A stretch of 64,000 nucleotides of DNA from Mesostigma viride (lineage: Eukaryota; Streptophyta; Mesostigmatophyceae; Mesostigmatales; Mesostigmataceae). Below, piece after piece: positions 6,925 through 38,900 of the stretch; the stretch's first letter is position 1; every line of letters begins with the position of its first letter. The notes below the pieces were generated by a model. It made no database searches. It was given only the letters and a program-made list of their open reading frames with translations, and was not told where the DNA came from. Both the position numbers and the translations under genes were made by a program. Location of the stretch: positions 3,174,251-3,238,250 of the forward strand of contig RPFO01000080.1 of NCBI GenBank assembly GCA_009746045.1. The letters are read 5' to 3'.

Positions 6925-8579
6925 TACTCCTGGACCACTTCATGGCAGTGAGTCAAGTCAGACAACCACAGCCATGTGGCAGTAGACTCTAACTCTCCTT
7001 TCCAGTGCACCTTAAACTGCAGCTGCTTGGTCCTACCCTTTCCTTTGACTCTGTGAGCCACCAGCTGCTCCACTTCATATATCCTCTCCCCCTCAGTATC
7101 CAGCTCAAATGGTAATGGAGCAGAAAGGCGTCCCTGCAAGGTATTGCGTTTATACAGTTTGAGCTGGGCCAGGTGAAACACGTTAGTCTTAAGCCTCCAG
7201 TGGGAAGGCACCTGGACTTGAACTACAGTCCCATAGTGGAAGGTGTCCAGGACAGGGTAAGGTCCCAACCACAAGGGTTGCAGTTTCCTGCATTGCTCCT
7301 TTTCAGGTAGCACACGATTAGCCTCCAAGAGCACCAGGTCACCAGGAGCCACAAAGGTGTGTGTAGCCAACATCTGTTGCCAAGCATTGTTTAAATACTT
7401 GTCCTGTGCATGCAACATCTGAGCAGCCACCATACTGTGAGCTTCCTGGAAGGATGCAATCAACTGGTGGACAGAGGTTAGGCGTCTTCTGAAGGGGCCT
7501 TCAGCATCCCTATCAGGTAACTCCAGGTCAAATGGAGTCAAGGGGCACTGGCCATGGCAAATGACAAATGGAGACATTTGGTGAGGAGCCAGGGGTGAGT
7601 TGTTGATGGCAAACTCTATGAAGGGAAGTTTCTTGTCCCATTCCTTGTTATCATGGGTACAATAGTGCTTCTGGCATTCCCGTACAATACGGTTCAGCCT
7701 CTCCACAGCCCCCGTGCTGGCACACCTGTATGCTACTCCAAAGGCCAACTTAGTGTCTAGGATGTCAAAGAAGGACTTCCAAAACCCAGACATCCACAAG
7801 GGATCCTGGTCAGTGATGATTACACGTGGCATGCCATGCAATCTGTACACCTCCTTCATGAACAACTCTACACACTGGGCAGCTGTGAGATGGGCATTGC
7901 AGGGGATGAGGTGGCACATTCTAGACAGCCTGTCCATCACCACTAGTATCCTGTCATTGCCAGCATCAGAAACAGGCAAGCCACAAATGAAGTCCATGGT
8001 CACACTGATCCAGGGTCGAAGGGGAATAGGCATGGCCATAGGAAAGATAGGCACTGCCTGAGTCCTAACCTTATTCCTTTGGCATGAGTCACAGGAAGCC
8101 ACATAGGCTTTGATATCACGAAACATGCCAGGCCACCAAAACCTCTCTTGTACTTCATGGAGAAGCTTAGCATACCCAGGATGACACGCAGTCACGTCGT
8201 CATGGAAGCAATGCAACACAGTGGGAATGGCCATTTCTGGCACATAGACCTTCCTGGTCACTACATGATCTGCATCCTGGGTGTGGACATACAGGACTCC
8301 CTCCCAGTACTCCACAGGTCTGTTACCAAAGCTTCCTTCCTGAATGGCCTTAGTGGCCAGGTCCTCAGTTTTAGTGAAGGCCTTAATCACGTCCAGCAGG
8401 GCTATACTCATAGGGTTAGGCAGGACTAGCTGTTTGCCAGGTCCTAAAGGCTGCAGCTGCAGCACCTCACCCTCCTGCAGGTGACTAGTGACTAGATGCT
8501 TGGATGACAGAACATCAGCCACAGGTGTACGTGACTTCCCCTTGATCTCAGCTGCCAATCCTCTAGACTTGGTCAGCAT
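6840..8579 (-). CDS. Gypsy integrase with chromodomain
   Basis: The ORF is 579 codons long, and its frame is open upstream to about 8622. An N-terminal HHCC zinc-binding region lies around residues 123-166 (His133, Cys163, Cys166). The catalytic triad is Asp196 (TMDF), Asp257 (TDQD) and Glu293, with 35 residues between the last two as in retroviral-type integrases. The C-terminal residues of about 499-553 (IYEVEQLVAHR...FKVHWKG) form a chromodomain, which in chromoviruses binds histone marks and steers integration. It lies in a different frame from the upstream RT ORF, with about 150-200 bp between them, so this copy needs recoding or carries mutations there. Its 3' end overlaps the third ORF by 85 bp. 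Confidence 0.93.
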   Translation of the reverse strand: MLTKSRGLAAEIKGKSRTPVADVLSSKHLVTSHLQEGEVLQLQPLGPGKQLVLPNPMSIALLDVIKAFTKTEDLATKAIQEGSFGNRPVEYWEGVLYVHTQDADHVVTRKVYVPEMAIPTVLHCFHDDVTACHPGYAKLLHEVQERFWWPGMFRDIKAYVASCDSCQRNKVRTQAVPIFPMAMPIPLRPWISVTMDFICGLPVSDAGNDRILVVMDRLSRMCHLIPCNAHLTAAQCVELFMKEVYRLHGMPRVIITDQDPLWMSGFWKSFFDILDTKLAFGVAYRCASTGAVERLNRIVRECQKHYCTHDNKEWDKKLPFIEFAINNSPLAPHQMSPFVICHGQCPLTPFDLELPDRDAEGPFRRRLTSVHQLIASFQEAHSMVAAQMLHAQDKYLNNAWQQMLATHTFVAPGDLVLLEANRVLPEKEQCRKLQPLWLGPYPVLDTFHYGTVVQVQVPSHWRLKTNVFHLAQLKLYKRNTLQGRLSAPLPFELDTEGERIYEVEQLVAHRVKGKGRTKQLQFKVHWKGELESTATWLWLSDLTHCHEVVQEYCQKKGLTLPSWYTGLVQTTAPLPISQD

Positions 8580-8778
8580 CCCTGGCTCCAGTATCCACTT
8601 CCTGGGCCGTCCCTTCCCCTCCTAGGATTCTCTGTGCTTGGTTGTGTTGTGAGAGTGGGCTGGCTACCAGCAGAACCCTCCCTAAGACTGCTCTGCAGTG
8701 ACTGACCCCCACCCTGGACGCCTGTCGACCCTGGGACAGAGCCCTGGTCAATGAGCATCTCGTGACTAAAGCTAGCCT

Positions 8779-11211: not shown

Positions 11212-11220
11212 TAGTTTTTT
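11211..11220 (-). promoter_or_regulatory. Candidate -1 frameshift site A AAA AAC followed by TAG
   Basis: On the minus strand the gag-side frame reads CCA AAA AAC TAG. The heptamer (11214-11220) fits the X XXY YYZ slippery rule exactly and the stop codon (11211-11213) follows immediately. A -1 shift here enters the pol frame (AAA AAA CTA GTG GAG), which is open for the next 800 codons. The downstream RNA structure was not evaluated. Confidence 0.7.
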
Positions 11221-11606
11221 GGCAGCTCAGGAGGATGATCTGAAGACGAGCTCCCCACTGAAGGCTGCACCTGCTGATCCTCTATGCCGTCTGCCTCCCC
11301 TTCTCCCTCCTCCTCCTCTGCTAGGAGGTGCCACAGGGCGTTGACCATCCGACGCCTGTCTTGCCTGTTGAATCCCTTGGGCTGGAATGGTCCCTTGCCC
11401 GAAGCCTGGAAGTTGGGTCTAAACCCAGGCTGTGCCCTGTGGTCGCTCTGGCTCACCCCAGGAGGGAATGGGTGGTCTGGTGAATGGAAGAACCCCCTGA
11501 GGACCCTTGGTGTCGCTTGGGAACTGGTCTCGCTTGGGGCAATCCCGTGCAAAGTGTCCCAGCTGGCCACACGTGAAACAGGCTCCTTTGGACTGCTCCA
11601 TGGCAC
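11211..11606 (-). CDS. C-terminal part of gag in a shifted frame
   Basis: This 131-codon open frame overlaps the end of the main gag ORF and continues to the slippery site. The part beyond about 11490 looks coding: it is basic, then acidic (LLAEEEEGEGEADG), as in many gag tails. It is probably the true gag C-terminus. It is reached from the main gag frame by a one-base change at the run of five G (plus-strand C at 11494-11498), through either a mutation in this copy or a recoding event. Confidence 0.6.
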   Translation of the reverse strand: MPWSSPKEPVSRVASWDTLHGIAPSETSSQATPRVLRGFFHSPDHPFPPGVSQSDHRAQPGFRPNFQASGKGPFQPKGFNRQDRRRMVNALWHLLAEEEEGEGEADGIEDQQVQPSVGSSSSDHPPELPKN

Positions 11607-12960
11607 TGAGCTCCTCCATCACAGCGTTCAGCTGGTTCAGGGGCTTCTTAACAGCAGGCGCCTGGTTGCCTGCAGCAGGCTCCCACTTGAGGGAAAAGTC
11701 AGGGACACGGCACAGCGTGAGGGCATAAGACAGCACAGTATCCCACTTCCACTCGACATAGTCGAAAGGGGAGAAATGCTTGTCAATATCCACCCTGACT
11801 TGAGGGGAGAGCCCATGCAGAAACCTGTGAAGAGCTTCAGAATCAGAGCACTGGGGGATTTTGGCCCTCAGGTTGGTAAACGTCTCTACGTATTGTGGTA
11901 GTGTCAGGCCAGACTGAGTACAGTTGGCCAACGCGTCCCGGTCCAGACGGAGCTGGTCCTGGGGAAGGAGAAAACGTCGAAATGAAAGCATGAGAGATGG
12001 CAAATCCTTGCAAGTATTACCTGCCGAGGATCGTAAAAACTCATCAAACCTGTCGGCTGCACTGTCGCTCATTCGCTGTCGAACCATCTTCTTCTGGATG
12101 TCCAGGGAAAGTCGTTCTTCCGCTCGTTTGCCGTAGTTAGCAAAGTGGATAGCGAACACATCCTGGAATCGAGTAGAGAAATGATCGAAACTGCGGTGGG
12201 TTAGATTGGTGAGCGACAGCTTGTCTACGGATTCGATTTTTGGAAATGGCGGGGCGGAACCTTGATGCGGTGGTATAGTGACGGTCACGGGGACGTCGCT
12301 GGCGGGGGTGGTGAAGGTGACCGAGGTCGTCTGCGCTGGATCCTGCCTATCGCTATCCTGCGTCTCATTCCTCGTAGTAACTGCGGTACTATTAGGTAAA
12401 ACCCTTCCGTCACCCAACCGAGGAGCCTCTCTCCCCAATCCAGCAACCATGTCACGCATGGCCGCCTCCTCCTCCTCAATTCTCTGACGAAGTCTTCCCA
12501 CATCCTGTTCCACCTCCTCCACCATCTTTCTATACATCGCTGCGTGTTGTTCATCGTGTAATAATCTGATTTTAGCTGCTGAGAGGCGATCCGCTGCAAG
12601 TCTGGTCCCGTCTCTTCCAGGCGTGGTATTTAGCGGGAAAAGAAATGAAGAAGATGCACTCCGCACAGGACTTGTTCGCGCGCTTGGAATCCTGGGCGAC
12701 AGTGACGCTCCTCGACCCACGCCTGTCAGCGATGGCTCGCCTGGTTGGAGACCAGATGCAATGACGGAAAACTTGGGCCCTATGGACAACGAGGGCCGCC
12801 TCACTTCAGACATAGAAGTACGGTTGAAATCAAGTTGACGCCGTGGAGTACGAGCAGTTGTCTCAGCACCTTCCCTAGCAATGGGTTCCAGAGATGATGA
12901 CGGATCTCCCAAACCTTGATTAGTAGGGGGTAAAGGTGATTGTGTCTTCGAACTACTCAT
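11419..12960 (-). CDS. Gag polyprotein with CCHC zinc knuckle
   Basis: The ORF is 513 codons long from an ATG at 12960, about 230 bp downstream of the 5' LTR. It contains a Ser/Pro-rich N-terminus, a charged coiled-coil-like stretch near residues 120-170, a retrotransposon-gag-like helical region around 260-430, and the zinc knuckle CFTCGQLGHFARDC at residues 461-474. Such proteins build the virus-like particle and bind the RNA genome. The ORF ends early in this frame; the adjacent shifted frame appears to carry its natural C-terminus. Confidence 0.9.
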   Translation of the reverse strand: MSSSKTQSPLPPTNQGLGDPSSSLEPIAREGAETTARTPRRQLDFNRTSMSEVRRPSLSIGPKFSVIASGLQPGEPSLTGVGRGASLSPRIPSARTSPVRSASSSFLFPLNTTPGRDGTRLAADRLSAAKIRLLHDEQHAAMYRKMVEEVEQDVGRLRQRIEEEEAAMRDMVAGLGREAPRLGDGRVLPNSTAVTTRNETQDSDRQDPAQTTSVTFTTPASDVPVTVTIPPHQGSAPPFPKIESVDKLSLTNLTHRSFDHFSTRFQDVFAIHFANYGKRAEERLSLDIQKKMVRQRMSDSAADRFDEFLRSSAGNTCKDLPSLMLSFRRFLLPQDQLRLDRDALANCTQSGLTLPQYVETFTNLRAKIPQCSDSEALHRFLHGLSPQVRVDIDKHFSPFDYVEWKWDTVLSYALTLCRVPDFSLKWEPAAGNQAPAVKKPLNQLNAVMEELSAMEQSKGACFTCGQLGHFARDCPKRDQFPSDTKGPQGVLPFTRPPIPSWGEPERPQGTAWV

Positions 12961-13172
12961 ACTTCCACATGGAGTCGCGATCGTCTGCCTAGTAGAGACA
13001 ACGGTTACGGCTGACTTCTAGTGTTACAGAGCAAGACAGTCACATCAGGATGTGTCTCAGTCTGTAACACCGTAAGTTTTCCGCAACTCTATGAATCTTC
13101 TCGGATGACAGACATCTGATCAACGTTGTACTACCCGGAAGGTTGCGACTTCAAGAGAAACACCAAAGTAGA

Positions 13173-13187
13173 GATCCTCCGATACCA
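13173..13187 (-). promoter_or_regulatory. Primer-binding site, initiator tRNA-Met-like
   Basis: One base inside the 5' LTR the minus strand reads TGGTATCGGAGGATC. The first seven bases match the usual TGGTATC complement of initiator tRNA-Met used by many plant gypsy elements. The later bases differ from the plant consensus. Confidence 0.65.
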
Positions 13188-13188
13188 A

Positions 13189-13967
13189 TGTAACGACTAA
13201 AAATGATCATCAACATCATCCACAGTCCAATATGAAAGATCTTTTACCTGGGTTGCTTTCCTGAGTCGCAGAACTTCAAGTATCCGAGCAACGTTGAGAT
13301 GGAAATTCCACAGCACGTGATTTAGGGAATCACAACCCCTTGTAGACACAAAGACAAGCTCGTGTATAGACGACCTCTGTGGAACTGAAGGACGTCTATA
13401 GCCAAGGGGCTCTTATGGATTGGACAACAAAGCCAAGCTTTATTATACCATGGTGAATCAAAACCAACGTAGCAACAATGGCGACCCCACGTCCTTGATA
13501 TCGACGTGCTTGTCGAACTTGCTCCAACCTTAGCCTGAAGAGAACCAATCAGAACCATGGAATCCTATACAAGATCTTCGTATCCATCCTAGTCACACAA
13601 AACAGAACAACACCACACACAGCCTGGCAGAATCTTTCCATGAGATCCAAATCTGTCGTGAGCACTGAAGTCCCAAAGGAGCATTTAAGACTCAATAGTA
13701 CCAACTAACAAACTACAACCCCACGTGGATCAGGCCACGACCAATGAGGGCTCCTATCAGTAGTATCAGCCAACAAACTACAACCCTACGTGGATCAGGC
13801 CACGGCCAATGAGGGTTCCTATCAGTTGGCTGACAAAGTATCAGCTCCAAGTACCGTCGTCTTAGAAACCTCATAACTTTCTCAATACTGATCCAAAAGT
13901 CCTCGAATAAAAGCCAAACATTCACAAAACAAAGGATGTAACAACAAAGTCATTTTTGCTTGTTACA
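13189..13967 (-). repeat. 5' LTR of the chromovirus
   Basis: It is the 779-bp partner of 4117-4897. The few differences are single substitutions or one-base indels. The element's promoter should lie here, reading leftwards. Confidence 0.93.
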
Positions 13968-14930: not shown

Positions 14931-15443
14931 ATGGCGGAATACGACTCATCCCAGCAATCACAAGCGTCCGCGGCCCTGCACCAACTCGCTGATGAAGCCA
15001 TGGCGTCATTGGAAACACCCTTGCACGCTATGCCGGACGCCACTGTCAGCATCCAGCCGCTCCACTCCACCGCTCCGCCGAACAGCGACCCTGCCATGGA
15101 TACCCGCGAGGAGGCCTTTTCTGCCGAGGAAGCTGCCGCATTTTTACCTGGCAAATGGCCAGGCCTTAACGCCATCATGCGCCTGTCCCGAGCTGCCGCC
15201 CTCACCATCCTGCACCTGGCTGCCGAGAAAAAGTGCGAGATCCGGGACTGCAACCAACAGGTTACCCACCTGTCGGACTTTCTCCACGACGACCCCGACG
15301 ACACTGACCTCTGCCTCGCAGTCTGGTGGACGTGCTCCCGTCTTTCCGACAGCGCCCTTGAGAGCTTTGTCGCGTCTGCGTACCACAATCTCCGGCGCCA
15401 CCATGGCGGCTGGCCATGCTCAGCTTTGGTAAAACCCAAATGA
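14931..15443 (+). CDS. Hypothetical 170-residue protein
   Basis: The frame opens with an ATG right after the tandem repeats and is rich in Ala, Asp and Glu. I recognise no domain. The last 25 codons (from 15369) lie in a segment duplicated at 16806, so the C-terminus may be a product of rearrangement rather than the original end. It could be an ORF1-type protein of a mobile element whose remainder was displaced. The opposite strand is also open for 172 codons, which weakens the call. Confidence 0.4.
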   Translation: MAEYDSSQQSQASAALHQLADEAMASLETPLHAMPDATVSIQPLHSTAPPNSDPAMDTREEAFSAEEAAAFLPGKWPGLNAIMRLSRAAALTILHLAAEKKCEIRDCNQQVTHLSDFLHDDPDDTDLCLAVWWTCSRLSDSALESFVASAYHNLRRHHGGWPCSALVKPK

Positions 15444-15637
15444 GCTGAGCTGACGTGCCTGCCTTAACTGCATGCCCGGTGGGGTGGGCGAGGACCTGTC
15501 CCATGATTCCCCCCCTCGCTGGCTCTCATGGCTCCTCACATGGCCAGCGACCGTGCCAACACCACAGCAGCTAAGGAAATGGTGACGCTACTGGTTGCGA
15601 AACGGCAGCGACACAAACTGGGCAAAACCACTGGCCC
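15369..15637 (-). repeat. Duplicated gypsy-B segment, copy 1 (empty CACTA site)
   Basis: It is identical or nearly so to 16806-17033 joined to 20266-20306. On the minus strand it encodes the last residues of the PHD-finger integrase (GQWFCPVC, 15637 downwards), followed by a natural stop that copy 2 has lost. At 15595-15596 the sequence CTGG-TT-GCGA is the uninterrupted target of the CACTA element at 17034. A purine run on the minus strand (complement of CCCCCCC near 15507-15513) could be a polypurine tract. Confidence 0.8.
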
Positions 15638-16805
15638 AACGAAAGGAGGGTTCTCAGCCGAGGACAAGGAACTGTCCCTCGTGCCTGATGACCACCTTAA
15701 TGCTTTTGCCTCCCCTGCTATAGAACAATGTTTTCACAACACACACTTTGCACAGTCTGATGATGAAGCCGCACATGCGGAATTTATTGAGAAAGTTAAT
15801 ACAATTACAACACGTTGATAGTCTCAATATCGATGCACTCCATGCTCACGAGCCCGCAGTTAGGCAGCGCTCCATGACATGCTACCGGCCTTGCTCCCAA
15901 GGAAAGGGAGAAACACGAAGGCCACTAACGAGAGACTCGAAGAGACTACACGCTACGTGAGAGTCCTCTTCGACTATGAACCAAACCATTCGTCATGCCA
16001 CACGCATGACACACGCCACACTTGTCAGTCCAGCCAGGAATGCCCAAACTATCTTGCTGCCTGAACCATGCAAATAGAAACTGCATTCCAGTTGCCGTCC
16101 TGGCTTTCTACCACACATGCCAACAAAAGCAGGAAGGCATCCCGACAAATCTATATTGCTACCCTGTTGCCGATCTCATCTCCTAGAGGCTCCGGCATTT
16201 CTGTCCCTGGGAATGTCCGGCATTGAGTCACGACCACCAAGGTCGAAGCATAATATCCTTCAAACAATCTGCACGCTCACACCTTGCGTGTGAGTGGCCC
16301 AGCAAACATTGCTTCTAATCTTTCCTTTCTAGAAGAAATCCCTTTGTAGGGCTGCCAGCGATTTCGCATTCATTCCAGCGATCTGGCTCCGCACCGCAAA
16401 TTCCATTTTCTGTCCAGTCCTCATAACGTTGACCCGCTATTCTACACCACAAAGACACCTGGCCTGTCAATAGCCTCGGCGCTGTTGAAGTCCAGCAGTC
16501 CAGCTCCAGCTCCAGCTCCAGCTCCAGCTCCAGCTCCAGCTGTCCACTAACTCGAGTATGATCCTCTCGACGCTGCGCACTTGTGCTGCCGTCCGCTCAA
16601 GTACGTTGAGTGCTGCGCGCCCAGCCGTGCCTGGCCCGGCGCGCGCGCACGTGCACTTTCGTCCGCTCTTATGCTGCAAGTGCTAGTGTCCCCCCCCCGG
16701 TCACTAGCCTTTGTCGAAAATGCGCAGAAAACAAGTTCCTTGCGCACGTCACCGGTATTGTGCGTAGTGGGCGCCCGGATGACATAGCTCGCGTCCGTGA
16801 CAGCT
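15638..16805 (+). repeat. Duplicated LINE 5' region, copy 1
   Basis: This 1168-bp block is repeated at 21492-22665 (1174 bp). The only length difference I see is one extra CCAGCT hexamer in copy 2. It contains the hexamer array at about 16499-16540. In copy 2 it leads straight into LINE ORF1; here it stops six bases before that ATG and joins gypsy-B sequence. Confidence 0.9.
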
Positions 16806-17033
16806 GTCGCGTCTGCGTACCACAATCTCCGGCGCCACCATGGCGGCTGGCCATGCTCAGCTTTGGTAAAACCCAAATGAGCTGAGCTGACGTGCCTGCC
16901 TTAACTGCATGCCCGGTGGGGTGGGCGAGGACCTGTCCCATGATTCCCCCCCTCGCTGGCTCTCATGGCTCCTCACATGGCCAGCGACCGTGCCAACACC
17001 ACAGCAGCTAAGGAAATGGTGACGCTACTGGTT
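16806..17033 (-). repeat. Duplicated gypsy-B segment, copy 2 (left part)
   Basis: It is the same 228 bp as 15369-15596, here cut by the CACTA insertion and resuming at 20264. The join to the LINE block at 16805/16806 lies within a short shared sequence (AGCTTTGTC in both parents, AGCTGTC at the join). Confidence 0.85.
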
Positions 17034-20000: not shown

Positions 20001-20263
20001 ATCACTTCTTTGGTTTTACCACTTTTTATCACTTTTTACCACTTGCACAAGCCTTTTACCACCACTTTACCACTTTTTACCACAAAGTGGTAAAAAGTGG
20101 TAAAATATACCACTTTTTTACCACTTTTTATCACTTTATATCACTTTTTATCACTTTTTATCACTTTTTACCACCCTTAGACCTCTTTTACCACCTCGAG
20201 GTGGTAAAAAGGTGGTAAAAAGTGATAAAAAGTGGTAAATTTACCACCCCCGAGTTCCTAGTG
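17034..20263. mobile_element. Non-autonomous CACTA-type (EnSpm) DNA transposon
   Basis: It is 3230 bp long with terminal inverted repeats CACTAGGAACTCGGGGGTG, flanked by a TT duplication (17032-17033 and 20264-20265). The undisrupted target is present at 15595-15596. Both subterminal regions (about 17050-17350 and 19950-20240) are packed with GTGGTAAAA/GTGATAAAA units in opposite orientations, a typical CACTA trait where transposase binds. A second internal CACTAGGAACTCGG lies near 17367. I find no transposase ORF, so it would depend on a partner. It also contains two fragments of a dispersed repeat (18229-18450 and 18975-19175) and a two-copy repeat of about 57 bp near 18820-18930. Confidence 0.9.
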
Positions 20264-21061
20264 TTGCGAAACGGCAGCGACACAAACTGGGCAAAACCAC
20301 TGGCCCGCTGGCACGGTGGTGAGCGCTGGCTGCAAGCAGTGCATGTGCCACCCACAATTACAGTGATCACACAGCAACATGGTATCCCCCTGGTCTACGC
20401 GATGGCAAACCTGACACTGCGCGTCCTTGACCCGCCTGGCCGTGTGCGGGGCGAGGTCAGGCAATAAGTTGGGCAACGAACACGGACTGAGGTTGCTTAC
20501 GTTATCGGTGGTGCGACTGCCGTCGACGCCCTCCAGAATGGCGACCCCAGATGGCTTGATGGCGACGATCCGCAAGATGGTCGGCCCCGCAGTCACGTCA
20601 AGAGTGTCGGTCAGCTGCGTGCGGAGAAAGACGAACTGCCCCGGACGAAAATGCAGCTGACGGGCCATGTAAGCGCCCCCCCGGCGCTGAGCGTATCGCA
20701 GGGTATCTCGGTGCTGGGCGATGAACAAGTTGTTCATGGCGATGGGCATAACCTTGCGGAAAGTAGCCGCCCGTGCGGTCACCTCAGCCAGAAACTGACT
20801 GGCGTTGTCAAACGCCATAGGGGTGGGGTGTGCACTCTGCGCCTCCGTGGGGAGCAAGGGTGCGCGCCCAAACAACAGGAAATACGGGGAGAAACAGGCG
20901 AGCGACTCCTGGGGTGACATTCGGTAACCCATGGCTATCCACGCCAGTTCACGATCCCACATAGTGAATGATGCTGACTGCAGGCTCCACTTGCGCAAAG
21001 CCTGCTTGTCAGCAATGGGGATGAGCTCGACCCACTTGCTAAAACTTTCGACACACACCAT
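20258..21061 (-). pseudogene. Gypsy-B integrase remnant with C-terminal PHD finger
   Basis: The ORF is 267 codons long. The N-terminus (FSKWVELIPIADKQA) is the start of an integrase core. It then jumps to the end of the core (WDRELAWIAMGYRMSPQES), so the second Asp and the Glu of the catalytic triad are missing. The post-core domain follows (LHFRPGQFVFLR). Residues 216-260 form a PHD finger with the full C4HC3 set (C216, C219, C231, C234, H239, C242, C257, C260). PHD fingers read histone H3 tails, so this may do the targeting job that chromodomains do in chromoviruses. The last codon and stop (CAC TAG) come from the CACTA insertion. Confidence 0.85.
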
Positions 21062-21225
21062 GACATACTTGTGGCCATCTGCACTTGCATCTGCGCGAAC
21101 AGCGCCACCATACTCAGCGGCGCTTCTTGGTCGCGACTCCCACCCACTGCGGGTACGGCGGGAGGAATCCCGCCATTCGACCCCGGAGCGGACGTGTTGG
21201 CATCTGCTCTATTTGCATCCGCCAT
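21062..21225 (-). pseudogene. Gypsy-B gag N-terminus fused to integrase
   Basis: It starts with an ATG at 21225 (MADANRADANTSAPGS) and runs into the integrase sequence near 21065, in a different frame. The rest of gag, protease, RT and RNase H is absent. The junction lies at GATGGCCACAAG, where the integrase side would normally read His-Lys-Tyr. This is an internally deleted element. Confidence 0.65.
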
Positions 21226-21491: not shown

Positions 21492-22343
21492 AACGAAAGG
21501 AGGGTTCTCAGCCGAGGACAAGGAACTGTCCCTCGTGCCTGATGACCACCTTAATGCTTTTGCCTCCCCTGCTATAGAACAATGTTTTCACAACACACAC
21601 TTTGCACAGTCTGATGATGAAGCCGCACATGCGGAATTTATTGAGAAAGTTAATACAATTACAACACGTTGATAGTCTCAATATCGATGCACTCCATGCT
21701 CACGAGCCCGCAGTTAGGCAGCGCTCCATGACATGCTACCGGCCTTGCTCCCAAGGAAAGGGAGAAACACGAAGGCCACTAACGAGAGACTCGAAGAGAC
21801 TACACGCTACGTGAGAGTCCTCTTCGACTATGAACCAAACCATTCGTCATGCCACACGCATGACACACGCCACACTTGTCAGTCCAGCCAGGAATGCCCA
21901 AACTATCTTGCTGCCTGAACCATGCAAATAGAAACTGCATTCCAGTTGCCGTCCTGGCTTTCTACCACACATGCCAACAAAAGCAGGAAGGCATCCCGAC
22001 AAATCTATATTGCTACCCTGTTGCCGATCTCATCTCCTAGAGGCTCCGGCATTTCTGTCCCTGGGAATGTCCGGCATTGAGTCACGACCACCAAGGTCGA
22101 AGCATAATATCCTTCAAACAATCTGCACGCTCACACCTTGCGTGTGAGTGGCCCAGCAAACATTGCTTCTAATCTTTCCTTTCTAGAAGAAATCCCTTTG
22201 TAGGGCTGCCAGCGATTTCGCATTCATTCCAGCGATCTGGCTCCGCACCGCAAATTCCATTTTCTGTCCAGTCCTCATAACGTTGACCCGCTATTCTACA
22301 CCACAAAGACACCTGGCCTGTCAATAGCCTCGGCGCTGTTGAA

Positions 22344-22400
22344 GTCCAGCAGTCCAGCTCCAGCTCCAGCTCCAGCTCCAGCTCCAGCTCCAGCTCCAGC
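22344..22400 (+). repeat. CCAGCT hexamer array
   Basis: Perfect tandem CCAGCT units lie in the LINE 5' region. The duplicated copy near 16490-16540 has one unit fewer. Confidence 0.9.
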
Positions 22401-22670
22401 TGTCCACTAACTCGAGTATGATCCTCTCGACGCTGCGCACTTGTGCTGCCGTCCGCTCAAGTACGTTGAGTGCTGCGCGCCCAGCCGTGCCTGGCCCGGC
22501 GCGCGCGCACGTGCACTTTCGTCCGCTCTTATGCTGCAAGTGCTAGTGTCCCCCCCCCGGTCACTAGCCTTTGTCGAAAATGCGCAGAAAACAAGTTCCT
22601 TGCGCACGTCACCGGTATTGTGCGTAGTGGGCGCCCGGATGACATAGCTCGCGTCCGTGACAGCTTTGTC

Positions 22671-23703
22671 ATGGCCTCTCTGGACCTGGGAGCCGACCCC
22701 ACTGTTGCGGCCGCCATCAACATCACCGCCAAGCAAGTCGCCAATACCTGCTTCGATCGCCTCCCTCCCCTCCTCAACGCTGCCCTCAACCCTGTCCACA
22801 ACCACCTCGCCACCCACCACGCCCATTCCTCACATGCCGACACCTCCATCCACTCCGCCATCACCCACATTGCAGCAGGGCTGCAGCAGCAGCAGCAGCT
22901 CCTCCACCAGCTCCACCAACAACTTGCCGCCTCCATCACTCCTGCCAAGACCACCTATGCCGCCACGCTTCAGAACCCTACGGAGCTCATCAACGAAATC
23001 AAAACAGCCGTCAAGGCCATGCAGCACACGGGATGCTATGCACGAACCCATTCGCTCATGCAGTATTGTGGTACGTGGCGTCCCCTCGAACGTCAACGAT
23101 GCACGCCTGGGCACCTACCTCCGGGGCGACCCCTTCCTGGGGAAGCTCGGCGTGGCCCAAAGCGTCGTCATCAAAACGGCACGACGGCTCGGCGGCCCCA
23201 CCGCCCCTGTCTTGGTGGAATTCCACCGCAAGGAGGACAAACTGCAGGTGCAGAAGGCCCGCCGGAACCTCCACGATACCCAACTGAGCATCGACGATTA
23301 CTATACCCCGGAGCAGCTCGAGGCCCGGGCTCCCGCTTTGAACCGGCCGGAGGTCCACGAGGCTCGGGCAGCCAAGCAGGCCAACCCGCAACTACGGTGC
23401 AGCATCTATGCCCGCCTCTTTAATGGCGTCTTCATCGTCAGCATTAACGGCCAGGACCTTCCTCCAATGACGGCGACCCCCATGGATACCGCCATGCCAG
23501 CGCCCCAGCCCCCTGCTCGGCCCCCGCCGTCACCGCCATCGCCACCGGCATCGACGGTCACCTGCTCCCCAGCACGTGTGGGGATCCGCCGGGGCAACTT
23601 CAGCTCAGGTATGGCTGCCAGGCTTGGCCGTCCCCTTAATAAAGTCGTTCGCTTTGCACCTGAGCCGGAGCCCGCGCTGCGAACCCTTCTCTCCTATCAA
23701 TGA
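22671..23703 (+). pseudogene. LINE ORF1, frameshifted
   Basis: It starts with ATG 22671 (MASLDLGADP). The first 120 codons are Ala/His/Gln-rich and include a poly-Gln run that could form a coiled coil. Near 23030 the frame changes by one base. The continuation to 23703 contains an RRM-like or L1-ORF1-like module (SCSIVVRGVPSNVNDARLG, then VVIKTARRLG and PVLVEFHRKEDKLQVQKARR) and a Pro-rich tail. Such proteins bind LINE RNA as chaperones. The family assignment rests on motif resemblance only. Confidence 0.65.
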
Positions 23704-23833
23704 CGACGCTCGCGGCCCCGCGGCTCCGCGGCTTTAGCAGTGGGATCTGCCTAACTCCCCTTCCCGCCCCTTTGCCTTCGCAGCCCTTGGGCTGTCGGAG
23801 AGAGAGCACCGGGTCGGCAGTGAGCCAGGTTCG

Positions 23834-24715
23834 AGTTACGTTAAATAGTGCCGGAACCTTTTGCCGCCTGAGGCAAATCGGTCCGTAACACTATTTTGCC
23901 CGGAATAACCACTTCCGAGCACCCAAGTTAATTCGGCCGAATTAACTTGGGTGCTCGGAAGTGGTTATTCCGGGCAAAATAGTGTTACGGACCGATTTGC
24001 CTCAGGCGGCAAAAGGTTCCGGCACTATTTAACGTAACTAAAACCTGGCCTCGTGGAGGGGGGACGAAGAGCCCGAGACATCCGCCTAGGCCGCTGAGCA
24101 CGCACCACTAAATGCGCCGGAGCTGCCTCAGTGAGGATTCGAACCCCTGACCTCCAAGGTGCACGGGTTTTAGTTACGTTAAATAGTGCCGGAACCTTTT
24201 GCCGCCTGAGGCAAATCGGTCCGTAACACTATTTTGCCCGGAATAACCACTTCCGAGCACCCAAGTTAATTCGGCCGAATTAACTTGGGTGCTCGGAAGT
24301 GGTTATTCCGGGCAAAATAGTGTTACGGACCGATTTGCCTCAGGCGGCAAAAGGTTCCGGCACTATTTAACGTAACTAAAACCCGTGCACCTTGGAGGTC
24401 AGGGGTTCGAATCCTCACTGAGGCAGCTCCGGCGCATTTAGTGGTGCGTGCTCAGCGGCCTAGGCGGATGTCTCGGGCTCTTCGTCCCCCCTCCACGAGG
24501 CCAGGTTTTAGTTACGTTAAATAGTGCCGGAACCTTTTGCCGCCTGAGGCAAATCGGTCCGTAACACTATTTTGCCCGGAATAACCACTTCCGAGCACCC
24601 AAGTTAATTCGGCCGAATTAACTTGGGTGCTCGGAAGTGGTTATTCCGGGCAAAATAGTGTTACGGACCGATTTGCCTCAGGCGGCAAAAGGTTCCGGCA
24701 CTATTTAACGTAACT
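23834..24715. mobile_element. Hierarchical palindromic element (882 bp)
   Basis: The target duplication GTTCG (23829-23833 and 24716-24720) bounds it exactly. Its structure is P-S-P-S'-P. P (23834-24039, 24172-24377, 24510-24715) is a 206-bp sequence that reads as its own reverse complement. S (24040-24171) is a 132-bp spacer, and S' (24378-24509) is its exact reverse complement. The whole element is therefore also palindromic about the middle of the second P. The spacer holds a tRNA-like 3' half with the B-box GGTTCGAATCC and then TCACTGAGGCA. The termini are AGTTACGTTAAA...TTTAACGTAACT. It has no coding capacity and sits between the two LINE ORFs. Confidence 0.92.
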
Positions 24716-24772
24716 GTTCGCCCCGCCTCGCGCGTCCGCCTCCGGAACCTCCTCAGACTGCACGCATTTCTT

Positions 24773-27700
24773 ATGCGTGCAGACGCAGACTCATTCTACC
24801 TGGCCACCCGAGCCAACCGTCGGCGTCGCCTCGACGCGTTGGCAGGAAGAATCGAAACGGTGATTGAAAGCATAAGTCCCCAACCCGCCCCCCCTACCCC
24901 ACCACCTCCACCCGGCCCACCCCCATCACCACCCTGCTCCATCTCCGCCCCCACCCCCGCCTGCACCCCCCTTTTCGGTCAACGCGCGCCCTTGGTCATC
25001 GCCACCTTCAACGCCCGCACGCTCCAGCCCGACGCTGACCGCTGTCACTGCCTGCGCAGTGACGACTGTCAGTGCCATCGAGTCTCCAATCTTATTGGTT
25101 TCTGCATCGACAATAATATCGCCATCCTGGGAATCCAAGAACACAGGCGCACTGCATCGGCCCGCGGATCAACTGCCCTTGTTGCTGACGACATCGACGG
25201 CTGGCGGTTCTACTACGGAGGCGGCGACGGCACCGGGAACGGGGGCGTCGGTCTCCTCTGCTCCCCGCTCGCCGTACGCCACATGGGCGAACCCCAGCTG
25301 GTCAACGCTCGCCTCCTCGTGGCCACTTTTCATTCGATGGAGGGCCACTCGACCTACGCCCTGACGGTGGGCGTTGGTTACGCACCCCACTCCGGCCACC
25401 CAGAACAAGACCGCAAGGACTTCTTTGCAGCGCTGGAGAACCTGGCGAACGGCATCCCTGGTCGCAACTACCTCGCTCTGCTGCTGGACGCCAACGCCAC
25501 GCTACCACCGGGTACTGGCGGATGTCAGCACGCCCCCAACGGTACGGTCTCCAATGCCAACACTGAACTTTTTGCTGATTTGCTTACGACATGCGATTTG
25601 GTCACTGCCAACACTCGCTTTCCACATAGTCCAGATGCTTTGGTCACACACACCTCGCCAACTGGCACTGAACGCTGCATTGACTATGTTGTAATGCGCA
25701 AGCGTCATCAAGGATCTGTACTAGCTGCTCGCTCGCATGTGATCCCCCTGGTGCGCTCCGATCATCGCATCGTCACCGCCCGCATCCGCCTGCGATTCCC
25801 CTCGCCCTTTCGTAAGCACGTGGCACCACCTGATTTGCGCACACTTCAGTTGCTCGAGAAATCTGACGACGCTCTGGAGGACTTCCCTGAAAAACGCGCC
25901 CACAAGCGCGCCGCAGAGGCGTTCGTCGACGCGCTGGACATCCCGGCCAGCCACGCCCAGCTGTTCGCTGCCGGCCCGGCATCGGCCCTTCGGCACCTCG
26001 CTGACAAGCTGCCCGCGGCCGGGGCCCTACTGCCCCCCCGCCGCCCGCCCCGCTTCACCAGCCTGCACCGGCTCCCCGCCGTCATCCAGGCCCGGCAAGC
26101 CCTGCGCGACAACAGCGACCCCGCCCGCTACGCCCGCCTCAAAGCCGATTACCACTCGGCCATCCGGCAGGCGACCAAGGAGCAGGAGGACCTTCATGTC
26201 CGCGAGTACTTCGCCCACCTCAAGGACCAGCACGGCAAGTACGCCTGGACCCGCCTGCGTCACGCCCAACGGCCCGCCGGCGGCGCGCAGCCGGCGCCGC
26301 GGACGCTCTCTGGCTCACCGCAGCAGCAGCTCGACCAGTGGTATTCCTCCCAGTCCCGGCTGCTCGGCGCCCCCCCGCCGCCTCCGCCGCTTGGCCCTCT
26401 GGCGGCCGCACGCCTGGCAGTAGCACCGGCGGACGTCCCTGCGCCGCCCACGCCGCCCGCCGCTGAGCAGGACTACACGTACCCAGCCCTGACGGAACCC
26501 CTGGCCGACCCCAACGAGCTCCCGCCGTTCACCGAGCTCGAGCTGAGCACCGCCGCCAAGCAACTCCGCTTCTATGCCGCCGTTGGACCTGACCAGCTCC
26601 CAGCCCCGGTGATTAAGCTGACGGCGCTCACGGGGTTCCTGCTTGACGTCTGCAACCGGATCCTGCTTGCCGACGCGCCGCCGATTCCTGAGTGGCAGCA
26701 CAGCTACCGTATTATGCTGTACAAAAACAAAGGTTCCCCTGACGACCCCGCCAACTACAGAGGAGTCTGCATCCAGAGCGCCGCACTTAAGTTGTTCATG
26801 CGCATGATCCTCAACCGCCTTCGTTCTGCTCTCGACTGTCACCTTGGGGAAAGTCAAATGGGCTTCCGTCCTGGGCGCAACACCGTCATGGCCATCTTCG
26901 TCGCGCGTCGCCTCTTCGAGGAAATCGCTCTCCTGCAACCTGGTGAGTTTCCCGCAATCCTGATCTTCGTCGACTTCATCAAGGCTTTTGATTCTGTCCT
27001 CTGGGACGCTCTATGGGCTGTACTTGCTCGCGCTCGCGTCCCCACTCCCCTGATTACCGTCATCCGCACGCTGTATGAGGGGTCGACCACTTCGGTGCGC
27101 ACTCAACACGGCATTACCCCCCATGCCCACTGCAGACCGGCGTCTGGCAGGGTTGCGTCCTGTCGCCGTACCTGTTTATTATTGTAGTGGATTATGTTAT
27201 GCGCCAGGCACGTGCTCGCTTTGCTAGCATTGCAGGCCGTGCCCCTGGCCTAGCGATCACGAACGAGCTTGGGGAAGGGGGGCCGACTAACAAGCAGAAT
27301 TTACTAGCTGACCTCATTTATGCCGACGACATCACGCTCATCGAGAAGCCGGAGTCTGCCCAACTTTGGCTGGACTGCCTGGCGCTCGAGGCTCGGGCGG
27401 TTGGTCTAGAAATCAGCCCCAAAACGGAGGCCCTGGCCCTCGGCATGGCAGGGCCCCCACCCACACTCCGCCTCTTAGACGATGCCGAGGTCAACTACCC
27501 TCCTTCAGGCCGCTTCAAGCTGCTCGGCAGTTGGCTTCCCGACTGCGAGGACGACATGACGACACGGATCGGCATGGCGTGGGCGCACCTCCATGACCAC
27601 CGCCGCTGGTGGAGCAACCCCGCCCTACCCCGGATCGTCAAGCGTGACCTCTTCAAGGTCGTCATTCTGACGATCCTGACCTACGGCGCCGAGACGTGGA

Positions 27701-28221
27701 CACTGACGCAGGAGCTGGAGCAACGACTCGACGGCGCCGTCACCAAGATGCTGCGCAAGGCCCTTAACATCCCCTTTGGTTTGCACATTAGTAATGAGGA
27801 TTTGTACGCTGATTTGCCCTATGTTTCCCACATTATTAGGCACAGGCGCCTGGGCCTAGCCGGGCACCTGGCCCGCACAGATCAGGTAGATACATCAGAT
27901 AGACTAGCTGGCACCAAGCCCGCCCAGCCTGGGCGATATGTCCTCACCTGGCGTGCCCCCGGCCGCGCGCGGCAGGGCCGCCACCCGTGGACTTTTCGTG
28001 ATAGACTCGGCATGGACATGTGCTACACTAGACGTGACGGGCTCACCCCCGGGCAGCCTCCTGGTTTGTCTGTAATATGGAGGCAGATGGTGCGCAAGGA
28101 TAGATGGCAAGTAGTGATGAAGGAGACCACCCCCAAGCCTGTGGGGGCTCTGCGTGTGACCAAGTATGGCATTCATAGCGATCCGGGCCGCGGTGCCCAC
28201 ACCCCTGTAACTAGGACCTAG
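24773..28221 (+). pseudogene. LINE ORF2: APE endonuclease and reverse transcriptase, frameshifted
   Basis: The first frame (24773-27187, 804 codons) has a Pro-rich leader. The APE-type endonuclease follows, with Asn80 (ATFNAR), Glu123 (QEHR), the LLDAN motif and a VRSDHR motif. The RT begins near residue 590 (VGPDQLPAPVIK) and includes YRIMLYKNKG, GFRPGRNTV and the first catalytic block, FVDFIKAFD. A one-base shift near 27119-27135, in a C-run before the LQTGVWQGC block, moves the rest into another frame to 28221. That part carries the catalytic YADD (LIYADDITLIE) and a conserved C-terminal region (YGAETWTLTQ). The endonuclease nicks the target and the RT copies the RNA there. Confidence 0.92.
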
Positions 28222-32900: not shown

Positions 32901-35900
32901 ACTCTAAGTACATGTGCACATGCACAACAGATCACATGGCATCAAGTGGCCGCACCCCCGTCTTTGGCACTCATACCAGTACCATAAAAAAAGGGGCACG
33001 TGTGACAGTAGGCACTAGTACCGGCGCAACACCAGTGCCCTTCTACTCTAGTCCTATTTAACACAAGCACCTCACATGGTGCAGGTGACGTACAGTAGAG
33101 CTACGCTACAGGCGGCAGATCGGCCCCCCTTTGAGCCCGCCGCAACGTAACTATAAAATGAGCTCAGAAAAGCTCAGAAAAGAAACTCGGGTAGCTATTT
33201 AAGATACCATCGAGCCAGCCACCAATAGGCATGTTACTAATATTATGCTAGTTGCATCTGCTTATTACCGCAGAATTATAATATATGCTAAGGCGGTATA
33301 ATACATCAGCTCTTGCAACGTCATGCTCCCCACCGCTCTTTCATACATATAAGAAGTACAGGACAGATCCTACATATAAGAAGTACAGGATATAGTAGGA
33401 CAGTAGGCAATATAAGCAGTAGTACTTGAAAAAGAAAGCCAACACAAAAATGACTTCATACTAGTATAATAAACAATCATACAAAGCTCCTTACCCACCC
33501 CCAACAAAGATCATCAAGAGTACAGCCATTCACGCCTTGCTTTGGGTTCGCCGTATAAATCGGGTCAACCCAACGACGGGCGTGAACCTGACTCAAGGCG
33601 TGAATGGCTGCACTTAGTTGCAATAATTTGAACTAACGATACTAAAAATATGCTGATCTGAACTAGTTTGAACTCAGTCGTACTAGGATGTCGAAATCCT
33701 AGGCGACCCAGCTTAGGGCATGAACACCACTTACGCAAACCAACTGCAGGCGTGGACCCAACTTCAGCAAGCCCAACAACTTCAGGCGTGAATGACTGCA
33801 CTCGGCTTAAATCCAATACATCGCACCATGACACAGTTCATCACACGGCCATGGAAAGCGGCTCACCCCGCCCACAGAGATGACGCCGTGATACGATGCG
33901 GACCACTGCCCGGTCGGGTCGATGGATACGTCGATGTGCGTGCTGCGGTATCGGAACCCGATCGCGCCGATGTACTGCGGGTGACGAGCGCACGCACCAG
34001 GGGCACTCAATCAGTTAAACATCAATAAGTTATAAATGTCACCAGGGATGACATCAGGAGATGAAATGAATGCAGCGCGGTGATGAAAGACCGGGCCGTC
34101 ACGTGCGGTCCATGAAGGACTGGTTGATGAAGGACAACAGGAAGCCGCTCACTGTCATGTACCGTGAGTGACAGTCACACATCACGGATGACAAGGGGGG
34201 CGTGACAGATGCACAGTGCATCAATCAGAAGTTCAAATCTACACAAGAACGAGATGACTTAGTCAAATCTGTCCCAATTCCGACCGAGTTAAATTCCTCG
34301 GAAATCCAGGAACTCACCAACTTTTGGTCCTCACGCGCCGCTGGCTGGATACCCCCCTCAACTGACATCGCCCCATCCAGCAGGACGTTGATGTGAAGTT
34401 TCGGGTCCGAGATGGCGCAGTAAACGGAGCCGGGCACGCCGGAGAAGTCAAGGCGGGCGCCGCAGCTACTGACGGAGCGTATCGATTCGACGAGGCTCAA
34501 CCCCACCATCATCTCGCTGAGCAGCCTCATGAAGGGGGTGCCCGTGATGCCAAACAGCCGCGTCTCCTGCGCACAAGGGGTGGCGGCGCGGCAAGCAGCA
34601 ATCGGTGGGATGTGTTCAGGGTGCCAAACCAAAGGTAACGTGGTCAGGATGCCAAAGAGTCGCGTCTCCTGCGCACAAGGAGGTGGGGACGCGGCAAGCA
34701 GCAACCGCTGTAAACATAGTCGGTGTGCTAAAGTGTTGGGCCTCCTGCCCGCGTTGCGGCAGTAACGTGGCATGCAGCAACAATTGTAGAGTGCAGACAA
34801 TTGTTAACACGGTCTGCATGCCAAAGTGTTGCGTTCCCTGCGCACAAGGAGGTGACGGCGTGGCAAGTAGCAGTGATTGTTTACGCGATTAGGGTGCCTA
34901 TGAAGCAGGTCTTCTGCATACCCAAGGACGATTGCTCGGCGAGCAGCTAGCATCGCCATGGCGTGACGAGCAGGAAGAATCATGAACGTGGACAGGACGT
35001 TAAACAGCGGGGTGAATAGGGCCAGATCGCCTGCGAAACTGGAGACCTTTGCTCAGCAGGCAGCGAGGATTCATAATGTAGTAGTACTAAAACTAGTAAC
35101 TAACATTTAAGTAATATATAACACATGTTATCATCATTTTATTGATATTTTTGACAACCGAAAAGGTGGTTAGCATGACTACCGTAGTGGTCAAAATCAC
35201 TTTGCGACAAACTACTTTGCGACCCCAAAACAAGGTGAAATTTATAGTTTGCGACCCAAAATGAAGGCAAAGTTTTAGGTTTGCGAGCCGATCGACTTGT
35301 TTATGGTCAGTGGCTTCACTGGCTTGCACCTACCTTATTAATAAATAATTACCTACCTAAGCGATTGGTCAATAGGGTGTAGTACTGATTATCATATATT
35401 CATGGGTCAATAGGGTATAGTACTGATGATCATATATTCATGAAATCATAGTAGTTGTCTCATTTAATAATATCGCGAAAATTGTGGCGCGACGCATTCG
35501 CTGGCTAGACGGGCTGTGCGGCCGGGCGTGGCGCGGTAACTTTTGGACTTTGCAACCCAAAATGAAGCCTATCAATACCAGTTTGCGAGATCGATTCGCA
35601 AAGTAGTTTGTCGCAAAGTGATTTTGACCACTACGGTAGCTGGGTATTCTCCGCAACCGATGATGACACAGCGAGCGGCCAAAGCACCGTCGGCGGGCAT
35701 GTTCATAATGACCTCTTCATCGGTAGGCATGTTCATACCATCTGTAAACCTGTTCATCGGTAGACCTGTTATGAGTCATGGGCGGGACGCGCTATTATTA
35801 GACGCAATGCCTGGATGCCAGCATCGTCTCGATGCCAACAGGACGATCTCCCGCATGCAAGATGATGCCACAGCCAGCACAAACCAACACAACGCGCACA

Positions 35901-38900
35901 ACATGCACAACAGGCCCAACCAGCCCAACCAGCCCAACCAGCCCAACCGGCCCAACCGGCCCAACCGGCCCAACAGGCCCAACAGGCACAACAGGCACAA
36001 CAGGCCCAACAGGCCCAACAGGCACAACCGGCCCAACCGGCCCAACCGGCCCAACCAGCCCAACCGGCCCAACCGGCCCAACCGGCCCAACAGGCCCAAC
36101 AGGCACAACAGGCACAACAGGCACAACAGGCCCAACAGGCCCAACAGGCACAACCGGCCCAACAGGCACAACCGGCACAACAGGCACAACAGGCCCAACA
36201 GGCCCAACAGGCCCAACAGGCCCAACAGGCACAACAGGCACAACAGGCACAACGGCACAACAGGCACAACAGGCCCAACAGGCACAACAGGCCCAACAGG
36301 CACAACAGGCACAACAGGCACAACAGGCACAATAGGCCCAACAGGCCCAACAGGCACAACCGGCACAACAGGCACAACAGGCACAACAGGCCCAACAGGC
36401 CCAACAGGCACAACAGGCACAACAGGCACAACGGCACAACAGGCCCAACAGGCCCAACAGGCCCAACAGGCCCAACAGGCCCAACAGGCCCAACAGGCCC
36501 AACAGGCCCAACAGGCACAACAGGCACAACAGGCACAACAGGCACAATAGGCACAACAGGCCCAACAGGCACAACCGGCACAACAGGCACAACAGGCACA
36601 ACAGGCACAACAGGCACAACAGGCACAACAGGCCCAACAGGCCCAACAGGCCCAACAGGCCCAACAGGCCCAACAGGCCCAACAGGCCCAACAGGCCCAA
36701 CAGGCCCAACAGGCCCAACAGGCCCAACAGGCCCAACAGGCCCAACAGGCCCAACAGGCCCAACAGGCCCAACAGGCCCAACAGGCCCAACAGGCCCAAC
36801 AGGCCCAACAGGCACAACAGGCACAACAGGCACAACAGGCCCAACAGGCCCAACAGGCACAACAGGCACAATAGGCACAACAGGCCCAACAGGCCCAACA
36901 GGCCCAACAGGCCCAACAGGCCCAACAGGCCCAACAGGCCCAACAGGCCCAACAGGCCCAACAGGCCCAACAGGCCCAACAGGCACAACAGGCACAACAG
37001 GCACAACAGGCACAACAGGCACAACAGGCACAACAGGCACAACAGGCACAACAGGCACAAATCAACTTATGGCCCTCACCAGCACGGCTATGAGCAGCGA
37101 GCCTCCCTCCAGTACACGCAGGCGAGCAAGAGTATCACACTACAAAGCAACTACTGCGTTGGTTGTCTCCTTGATACCTGTACGAGTGTCAAGCCACACA
37201 AAAGCGATGATGGCCCTCACCAGCATGGCCTTGAGCAGCGAGCCGTCCTCCACCCCCCCCTCTAACGCGGACATCAGCATCGCCACGTCCTCGTCTTCCT
37301 CTGCAAACATGGTCACGTTGTAAATGGTGTAGCCTTTGAGAGTCTTCCTGGCAGGGTCCGAAAGGGCGGGATGCAGGACCAGGTGGGGCAGGATTGGGCG
37401 GGAAGGTAGCATGATCTTTAGTGGCCAGCCACGCGGCGTCAACCATTATTACCTTACAAGCAGGTAGCAAGCAGGTAACTTACAAGCAGGGGAGCGACGG
37501 CAAAGCAGCAAAATGAGGCGCTGTGAAGCAATAAATCAATTGCCGCATAGCATGGCTACTATATGGTGTATCAGAAGCAGTCGCGTGAATTTTTTTTCCC
37601 AACGTTTTCGTCATCCAAAGTGCCAGAAACCCATTTCCGGACTATGAGTTACAATGTCCAAAGAGCCGTCCCTTAACCATGCCAGAGTTACTATGTCCAG
37701 CAACCATGTCCAAAGAGCTGTGCCTTACCCATGCATCCCTGATGATCATTAGCGCTGCTGCTGATGCAGGGGAGCGACAGACGCGCCACAGAGCACATGA
37801 TGATGTTAACACGATACTAGTAAACAATCGAATACTAATATAGCACAACTAGTAGTATATCAATGATAATAACCGGTTGCATGATATAGCACAACTAGTA
37901 GTATATCAATGATAATAACCGATGGCATGCACCTCTGCTGACTGGAGGGCCGGCTGGCGGTGACCGACACATGACAGGTGGCGACGGCCCGCTCCAGTCC
38001 CAGCACGTCGGCGACCAGGCTGACGAGGAGGCACCGCCCGTGGTGCCCCTCCAGGGCCTCAGCAGCCACTGTAGAATCGCCTTGCGCCGAAAACTGTAGC
38101 CAACCACTGCGGGGAGGGCGCTTGCAGCGTGCTTTGTCGCAACTCTCGTCGTCCACTGGCGGACGCAAGCAGTATAGCAAGCAGTCCAAGAAAAAAAAAA
38201 GTGAAGCAACCCCACCGAACAAACAGTCAAACAAGCAAGTACAAGCATACGTCCTACGTACCCACGGTGGTGGCCTATAAAAAACATTTGCTTCTGAAAT
38301 GACCTGAATTTGTCTCACCAAGCAAGACTCAAATTGCCATCATATGCCACCCCACGTACGCACAGGAAAGGCCTTACATAAACGTCTATGTACAAAAAAA
38401 TATTAGATTCTGGCACACGCCCCACGCACCCACGGTGTTGGCCAGGCCAAGTAAAGTTCTCTTGTTTACGGCACGACCTTAATCTTTGTCCCAGATACGA
38501 GGCTCTAGCAATCGCTTCACAAAAGGTAGCTGCCAACAAATCAAGCTTCGATCATGAACGATTTTTACATGCATCCCATCCATGCATGGTGATGGCCTAT
38601 CACAGACTCATGTTCCCATCAAGGCAGTCAATAGAATAAATAAATACTACTAAATAAGTTGCAGTAAATAAGTAAATAAATTAAAGGACCCACATGCCCA
38701 CGGTGATGGCATCTCAGAACCTGTTTCCTTAAAGGCGGCCTAGTGCCTATAGATAAACACACAACAGGTCCCACATACCCACGGTGATGGCGGTTGTGCA
38801 AGGCTCCGATTGCTGACTGCCGTCACTCGCCACGCACGTGACCTTGGTGGTCTCTGGCCCCCCCGCTATCGTGACCACAAAGTCTCGTGCCCCCCTCGCC

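Follow-up and report, generated by a model that had tools for sequence, protein, structure and literature searches.

An 882-bp palindrome within a LINE of Mesostigma viride: a probable young member of a dispersed, MITE-like family of palindromic elements

We analysed a window of 64,000 nucleotides of the Mesostigma viride genome (contig RPFO01000080.1). The element studied here lies in a LINE with two open reading frames on the plus strand. ORF1 (22648-23703, stop-to-stop frame) is 98% identical, across 64% of its length, to a gene model of Mesostigma viride, and the ATG of ORF2 at 23700 overlaps the ORF1 stop codon in the motif ATGA. ORF2 (23700-28221) is split by the element at codon 45. Its reverse transcriptase domain lies in two frames, with the split at 27079-27187, so that either this LINE copy has suffered damage other than the insertion or there is an indel in the assembly. 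The LINE 5' region (21492-22665; 1174 bp) is repeated at 15638-16805 with 99.5% identity, and this second copy is bracketed by a direct repeat of 229-245 bp (15352-15596 and 16791-17033), an odd composite. In the Mesostigma gene model P0001, part of the LINE ORF2 is fused to a tyrosyl-tRNA synthetase-like start (Pfam PF00579), perhaps through an error of gene prediction.

The element occupies positions 23834-24715. An exact check found these 882 bp identical to their own reverse complement at every coordinate, with the order P-S-P-S'-P and the flanking GTTCG pentamers that the preliminary description had reported. The three P units, the terminal P1 (23834-24039), the internal P2 (24172-24377) at the midpoint of the 882-bp palindrome and the terminal P3 (24510-24715), are identical copies of one 206-bp perfect palindrome, each made of two 103-nt arms that meet without a spacer. 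The ends of P are AGTTACGTTAA..TTAACGTAACT. Between P1 and P2 lies the 132-bp spacer S (24040-24171, plus strand), whose 'a' end AAAACCTGGCC points toward P1 and whose 'b' end GCACGGGTTTT points toward P2; its exact reverse complement S' (24378-24509, minus strand) lies between P2 and P3 and carries a tRNA T-arm or B-box-like stretch GGTTCGAATCC at 24404-24414 (plus strand). S is non-palindromic except for AAAACC/GGTTTT at its two ends, and GGTTTT/AAAACC stand on either side of P2.

The P arm contains two putative sub-hairpins, at arm nucleotides 10-63 (23843-23896 in P1) and 64-88 (23897-23921), and the folding of the whole 103-nt arm was matched or bettered by 1/200 shuffles with RNA parameters and by 4/1000 with DNA parameters. 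The G+C content is 48.5% in P and 62.1% in S, the latter similar to that of the surrounding LINE (63.1%). When the window was scanned for perfect palindromes of even length, the second-longest arm was 13 nt. The 17-mer of the P end (up to 3 mismatches) occurs six times in the window, always within the element, where shuffles would give 0.06 occurrences. There is no ORF of at least 80 amino acids inside this copy.

The target-site duplications GTTCG lie at 23829-23833 on the left and 24716-24720 on the right. The LINE is repeated in the genome: of 323 candidates 40 were scored, the window's own included, and all 40 match at 98-100% over 300 bases. Six other copies were fetched, and in 6/6 the site was uninterrupted with a single GTTCG. 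Because these empty sites carry one GTTCG, the insertion and its 5-bp duplication are seen directly. Five inner parts were checked in the same way, namely the three single P, P1-S-P2 and P2-S'-P3, and none is bordered by a direct duplication, so only the whole 882-bp element has one, and the empty sites bear out the earlier proposal that it moved as one unit. The joined flanks form an open frame, but so do 788/2000 shuffles, and this alone would be weak; it is the empty sites that settle the interruption of ORF2. The left flank GCCAGGTTCG resembles the S' end GCCAGGTTTT, with 1 of 8061 nearby positions as good. We judged this likeness a coincidence, because the empty LINE copies have the same flank and other loci have other targets.

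The window also holds a Gypsy-type retrotransposon (4117-13967) with a chromodomain integrase, LTRs of about 780 bp that are 99.4% alike and a 5-bp duplication GAAGC. A minus-strand fragment at 20258-21208 ends in a PHD finger and looks retrotransposon-like by eye. The plus-strand ORF at 53163-54152 had one relative in the protein search, a Mesostigma protein (51%, E 0.001), and no Pfam domain; it may belong to a gene or repeat family specific to the species. At 35800-37100 and 40500-42800 there are long, degenerate tandem arrays with more than one open frame.

The outer P end recurs across the genome. Its pattern was found at 662 places (333 + 329), and the reversed-pattern control at 0. We examined two samples of loci of the family. 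The ranked sample came from a search with half of the element and comprised 40 places, the window's own included (at least 205 matches; 40 of 665 candidates scored). It was reduced to 35 by setting aside L024, L030, L045 and L022, which are duplicates or probable duplicates, and L019, which is cut by a gap. The positional sample was drawn from the first 100 outer-end places in contig order, which form 69 clusters, 13 of them already in the ranked sample; its 36 stretches cover 37 of the 56 new clusters and may contain duplicates, L071 and L072 looking like one, with the same immediate flanks. The ranked sample is biased toward copies like that of the window, and the positional sample, which omits the ranked copies, leans toward diverged ones.

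Among the 71 loci, the window's own included, 52 are regular arrays of the form P-(S-P)n, in which n ranges from 0, a solo P, up to 5, and 19 are irregular. The ranked sample has three loci with n = 1, 19 with n = 2, four with n = 3, three with n = 4, one with n = 5 and five irregular ones. The corresponding counts in the positional sample are five with n = 0, one with n = 1, 12 with n = 2, three with n = 3, one with n = 5 and 14 irregular. The irregular locus L086 has nine S copies and a 5-bp duplication. All the loci delimited here are under 3 kb.

A duplication of exactly 5 bp flanks 58/71 loci. In the ranked sample it was found at 31/35; one locus has 11 bp and one 7 bp, both in short tandem repeats, and two have none. 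In the positional sample it was found at 27/36, with one of 7 bp in a C run, one of 1 bp and seven loci without a duplication, all seven having one end truncated or incompletely aligned. Solo P was seen at five loci, including L052, and 4/5 carry a 5-bp duplication. Given these insertions, P alone is mobile. Solo P, P-S-P, P-S-P-S'-P and longer arrays thus all occur elsewhere with 5-bp duplications, as the preliminary description had predicted for monomers and dimers. The LINE ORF2 as host, the mobility of P alone and the varying number of units go beyond that description. L052, a relative of P (66%) that measures 236 bp, has a 5-bp duplication of its own, and more than one P family, each with another centre, may therefore exist. 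Mixed arrays at L012, L020 and L041 contain a diverged S subtype that departs from the common one by about 20 changes, deletions among them. A minisatellite of the same kind adjoins a P arm in L071 (about 107 bp) and a P element in L078. The 71 loci revealed neither a transposase nor an autonomous partner, with ORFs read at L068, L071 and L078; the long unassigned stretches beside P at these three loci are, by eye, reverse transcriptase-like frames or minisatellite.

The two arms of a P are alike even where the copies have diverged. In the positional sample, the arms of the same P differ by a median of 0 (47/89 identical), the arms of different P within one locus by a median of 2 (126/444 identical), and arms from different loci by a median of 3 (210/4000 random pairs identical). 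In the ranked sample the identical fractions are 88/111, 329/556 and 2587/4000, respectively, a small contrast among copies that hardly differ, the same-P and between-loci medians both being 0. In the 40 ranked loci, duplicates included, 102/128 full P are perfect palindromes, and the changed P of unchanged length in these 40 loci have 28 mirrored pairs of changes vs 23 unmirrored changes. In L052, about 20 substitutions or indels are common to both arms, with many differences at the centre. Because the same-P median is 0 vs 3 between loci in diverged copies, we conclude that the two arms of one P are copied into each other. Short-read polishing could inflate the likeness between copies, but sets of 4 to 6 mirrored variants peculiar to one element are hardly to be expected from it.

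Symmetry at the scale of the whole 882 bp is preserved far less than that of P. With duplicates included, 7/19 P-S-P-S'-P loci of the ranked sample are perfect palindromes (5/17 sites with duplicates removed), vs 0/12 in the positional sample. In two positional dimers, L054 and L070, a single site distinguishes the halves of the 882-bp palindrome, although each half departs from the window copy at 9 to 12 sites; in the other 10/12 there are 3 to 33 differences between the halves. The earlier statement that perfect arms imply recent insertion or homogenisation holds on both counts, the perfect dimers speaking for the former and the mirrored P-arm changes of older copies for the latter. The S copies, with the diverged subtype excluded, have in the positional sample a median difference of 2 both within a locus (15/59 identical) and between loci (540/4000 identical); in the ranked sample, 29/56 are identical within a locus vs 1225/4000 between loci.

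Identical arms in the ranked sample are more frequent in terminal P (55/60) than in internal P (23/40), and with both samples pooled p = 0.00014; the positional sample alone (21/34 vs 11/22) gave p = 0.16, which is not significant. Hybrid P, with a left arm of one type and a right arm of another, occur in L014, L020, L032, L041, L053, L064 and L083, and the one in L053 is a terminal P. We also considered a model in which the unit is one S with the two arms that flank it. This holds in the single cases L014, L020, L032 and L041. The arms flanking one S are identical in 49/70 cases in the ranked sample, vs 1826/3000 arm pairs of different loci, and in 14/39 vs 91/3000 in the positional sample. 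In the positional sample, however, the likeness extends to every arm of a locus, so the model has no explanatory value beyond that and was set aside.

The orientation of S is strongly biased. Among the 31 regular dimers of both samples, 29 are S-P-S', two are direct and none is S'-P-S. For neighbouring S pairs in all regular arrays (n = 62), the counts are 44, 15 and 3, respectively, and 88/94 outer S ends are of the 'a' type. From the 29/31 dimers we take it that S-P-S' has probably become a mobile form in its own right and spreads as a dimer. The arrays that mix the diverged and the common S subtypes (L012, L020 and L041) retain intact 5-bp duplications, and we therefore think that arrays were probably assembled before insertion; gene conversion after insertion is a possible alternative source of the mixed arrays.

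Relatives were also sought outside the genome. Four P fragments of 19 to 21 nt had no matches in viral contigs; a 17-mer had two there, alike over at most 21 bp, which look like chance. Two exact patterns had no matches in bacterial and archaeal genomes, and distant blastn against phages and plasmids gave no relatives at E 1e-5. The tRNA covariance match in S' is weak (16.2 bits vs a gathering score of 29), and ARAGORN at default thresholds found no tRNA gene in S. A circularly permuted tRNA in doubled S', found by ARAGORN at lowered thresholds, was dropped because 922/1000 shuffles also gave some tRNA call. A second stretch resembling a tRNA 3' half, at 6394-6416 of the window, is similar to that of S (23 nt, 91%) and is perhaps part of a tRNA-derived repeat.

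How the palindrome arose can be read in several ways. Palindromes are a known artefact of long reads, and a missed adapter or a collapsed repeat could in principle produce such an assembly. Here, however, the LINE flanks are collinear, empty sites exist and many different target duplications are found across the loci, all in line with the earlier view that this is no fold-back artefact. The published M. viride long-read assembly used PacBio reads with an N50 of 11.2 kb at 113x (PMC6947507), ample to span 882 bp if the assembly analysed here is the same one, and an artefact is extremely improbable. It is also very unlikely that a single P-S-P insertion was converted in place into arrays and inversions by unequal exchange and inversion between palindromes. 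Variants of length and orientation do exist (regular n = 1 to 5, L086 with nine S, direct and inverted), and exchange in place would preserve the duplications. But random flipping predicts S-P-S', S'-P-S and direct dimers at about 1:1:2, far from the observed 29, 0 and 2, and S'-P-S is also scarce among all neighbouring S pairs (3/62). Moreover, arrays mixing diverged S types require material from other loci, and n and orientation are unchanged in four pairs of duplicate or probably duplicate sites.

A third reading takes P as the hairpin telomere of an extrachromosomal mini-replicon, in which folding back at one P and copying makes P-S-P-S'-P afresh each time before integration, in the manner of the replicative dimers of parvoviruses. 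The palindromic termini and the head-to-head units with one P in common have the form expected of such rolling-hairpin dimers. The same S end is inside in 29/31 dimers, the P arm has sub-hairpins, and the intact duplications around mixed arrays point to a stage that precedes integration. The AAV literature offers a parallel: according to PMC11575299, AAV intermediates include alternating repeats and head-to-head concatemers consistent with a rolling hairpin. The two S are identical in 11/17 ranked S-P-S' dimers, vs 1225/4000 S pairs of different loci. With the diverged subtype excluded, however, S copies of one locus exceed those of different loci only modestly in likeness, in either sample, and two different S types are combined in L041. 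Dimers cannot, therefore, generally arise by fresh fold-back copying. The dimer halves agree perfectly in some ranked loci and in no positional one. Parvoviruses do not typically leave clean 5-bp duplications when they integrate, and a Rep gene was not seen in the element. We regard this reading as unlikely.

Taken together, the window element is very probably a young n = 2 copy of a dispersed, non-autonomous, palindromic MITE-like family of Mesostigma viride with the general form P-(S-P)n. We propose that the 206-bp P is the mobile unit, able to insert alone, and that an enzyme would recognise the outer P ends, insert the whole array and make the 5-bp target duplication; the window copy landed in the LINE ORF2, as the empty sites show. 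The arms tend to stay mirror-identical through copying of one from the other, which the mirrored variants of diverged copies make visible. This copying probably proceeds through a hairpin, formed either by template switching at quasi-palindromes in replication or as an intermediate of transposition. Quasi-palindrome correction during replication is described for bacteria and yeast. The mixed arrays suggest that units were joined before insertion, presumably through recombination or template switching between P palindromes.

The 5-bp duplication and the AG..CT ends fit retroviral-type integrases, including those of Polintons, whose ends are consistent with the AG..CT type, and of the gypsy element in the window; several enzyme classes could serve. 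The ends shared with the gypsy LTR (TGTAACG vs AGTTACG, both with 5-bp duplications) were considered too weak to name the enzyme. A bolder proposal, which we hold to be rather doubtful, is that the mobile form is a DNA hairpin in which one arm is carried and the other re-made at each insertion. P would then be a self-correcting end, and units would concatenate extrachromosomally before an integrase-type enzyme inserted them with a 5-bp duplication. If true, this would be a eukaryotic element with a hairpin life cycle unlike that of the known cut-and-paste MITEs.

Perfect palindromes that are long and lack a spacer are as a rule unstable, yet M. viride has a large family of them in which the arms remain matched even as the copies diverge from one another. 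The many copies with a known arm haplotype provide a natural test of palindrome correction by template switching, conversion or hairpin transposition. The family also tests how modular arrays form before insertion, and some specific rule seems to lie behind the nearly invariant S-P-S' orientation.

Among the open-licence papers listed in literature searches, none was seen to describe this family; those listed for Mesostigma and palindromes dealt mainly with organelle genomes or unrelated subjects, and the available text of PMC6947507 does not contain the words palindrom, Maverick, Polinton or Helitron. The nearest likeness found is with the palindromic repeats M1 and M2 of pithoviruses, arranged as (M1-M2)1-8-M1 (PMC10664404). 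There, the MITE-like palindrome M1 recurs at intervals of about 140 bases, and the alternating arrays comprise 1 to 8 units. M2 is palindromic like M1, the internal sequence is 37 bp, and the putative target duplication is TA, with one presence/absence example at a site without a duplication. The repeats are more alike within a region than between regions, and the authors found no transposase. The two systems share alternating, regularly spaced arrays of MITE-like palindromes, a greater likeness of repeats within a region than between regions, and the failure to find a transposase. Unlike the pithovirus repeats, as described there, the algal P has no central spacer, S is non-palindromic, and the 5-bp duplication is clean, with empty sites.

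The family resembles plant MITEs and MITE multimers, which the same paper mentions, in being short, non-coding and high in copy number, with inverted ends, a target duplication and multimers. It differs from plant MITEs in its zero-spacer palindrome, its regular P-(S-P)n arrays of biased orientation and the mirrored evolution of its arms. Polinton-like viruses and mavirus-like elements make duplications of about 5-6 bp and have long terminal inverted repeats (PMC12220804, PMC8547959), and the algal family agrees with them in both features. Unlike them, the window copy is gene-less, the loci are under 3 kb, and the inverted repeats are themselves palindromes; no link is shown. An assignment to Polintons was rejected, the retroviral-type integrase, protein-primed PolB and capsid genes being absent from a window copy with no ORF of at least 80 amino acids. 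With AAV rolling-hairpin dimers (PMC11575299) the family shares palindromic ends and head-to-head units, a likeness of form only.

By the features that define MITEs, the family has inverted ends and a duplication of fixed length (5 bp at 58/71 loci, with empty sites), is short and non-coding (882 bp with no ORF of at least 80 amino acids in the window copy), and is dispersed in high copy number (662 places, control 0). Foldback elements and Galileo likewise consist mostly of long inverted repeats. Foldback elements are defined by arms of tandem direct subrepeats. The algal arms, on the other hand, have no direct subrepeats, P itself being the only direct repeat family in the region, and the 5-bp duplication and the palindrome as the repeated unit set the family further apart from Foldback and Galileo. 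We class the family as MITE-like rather than with Foldback elements, Polintons or parvovirus-like replicons.
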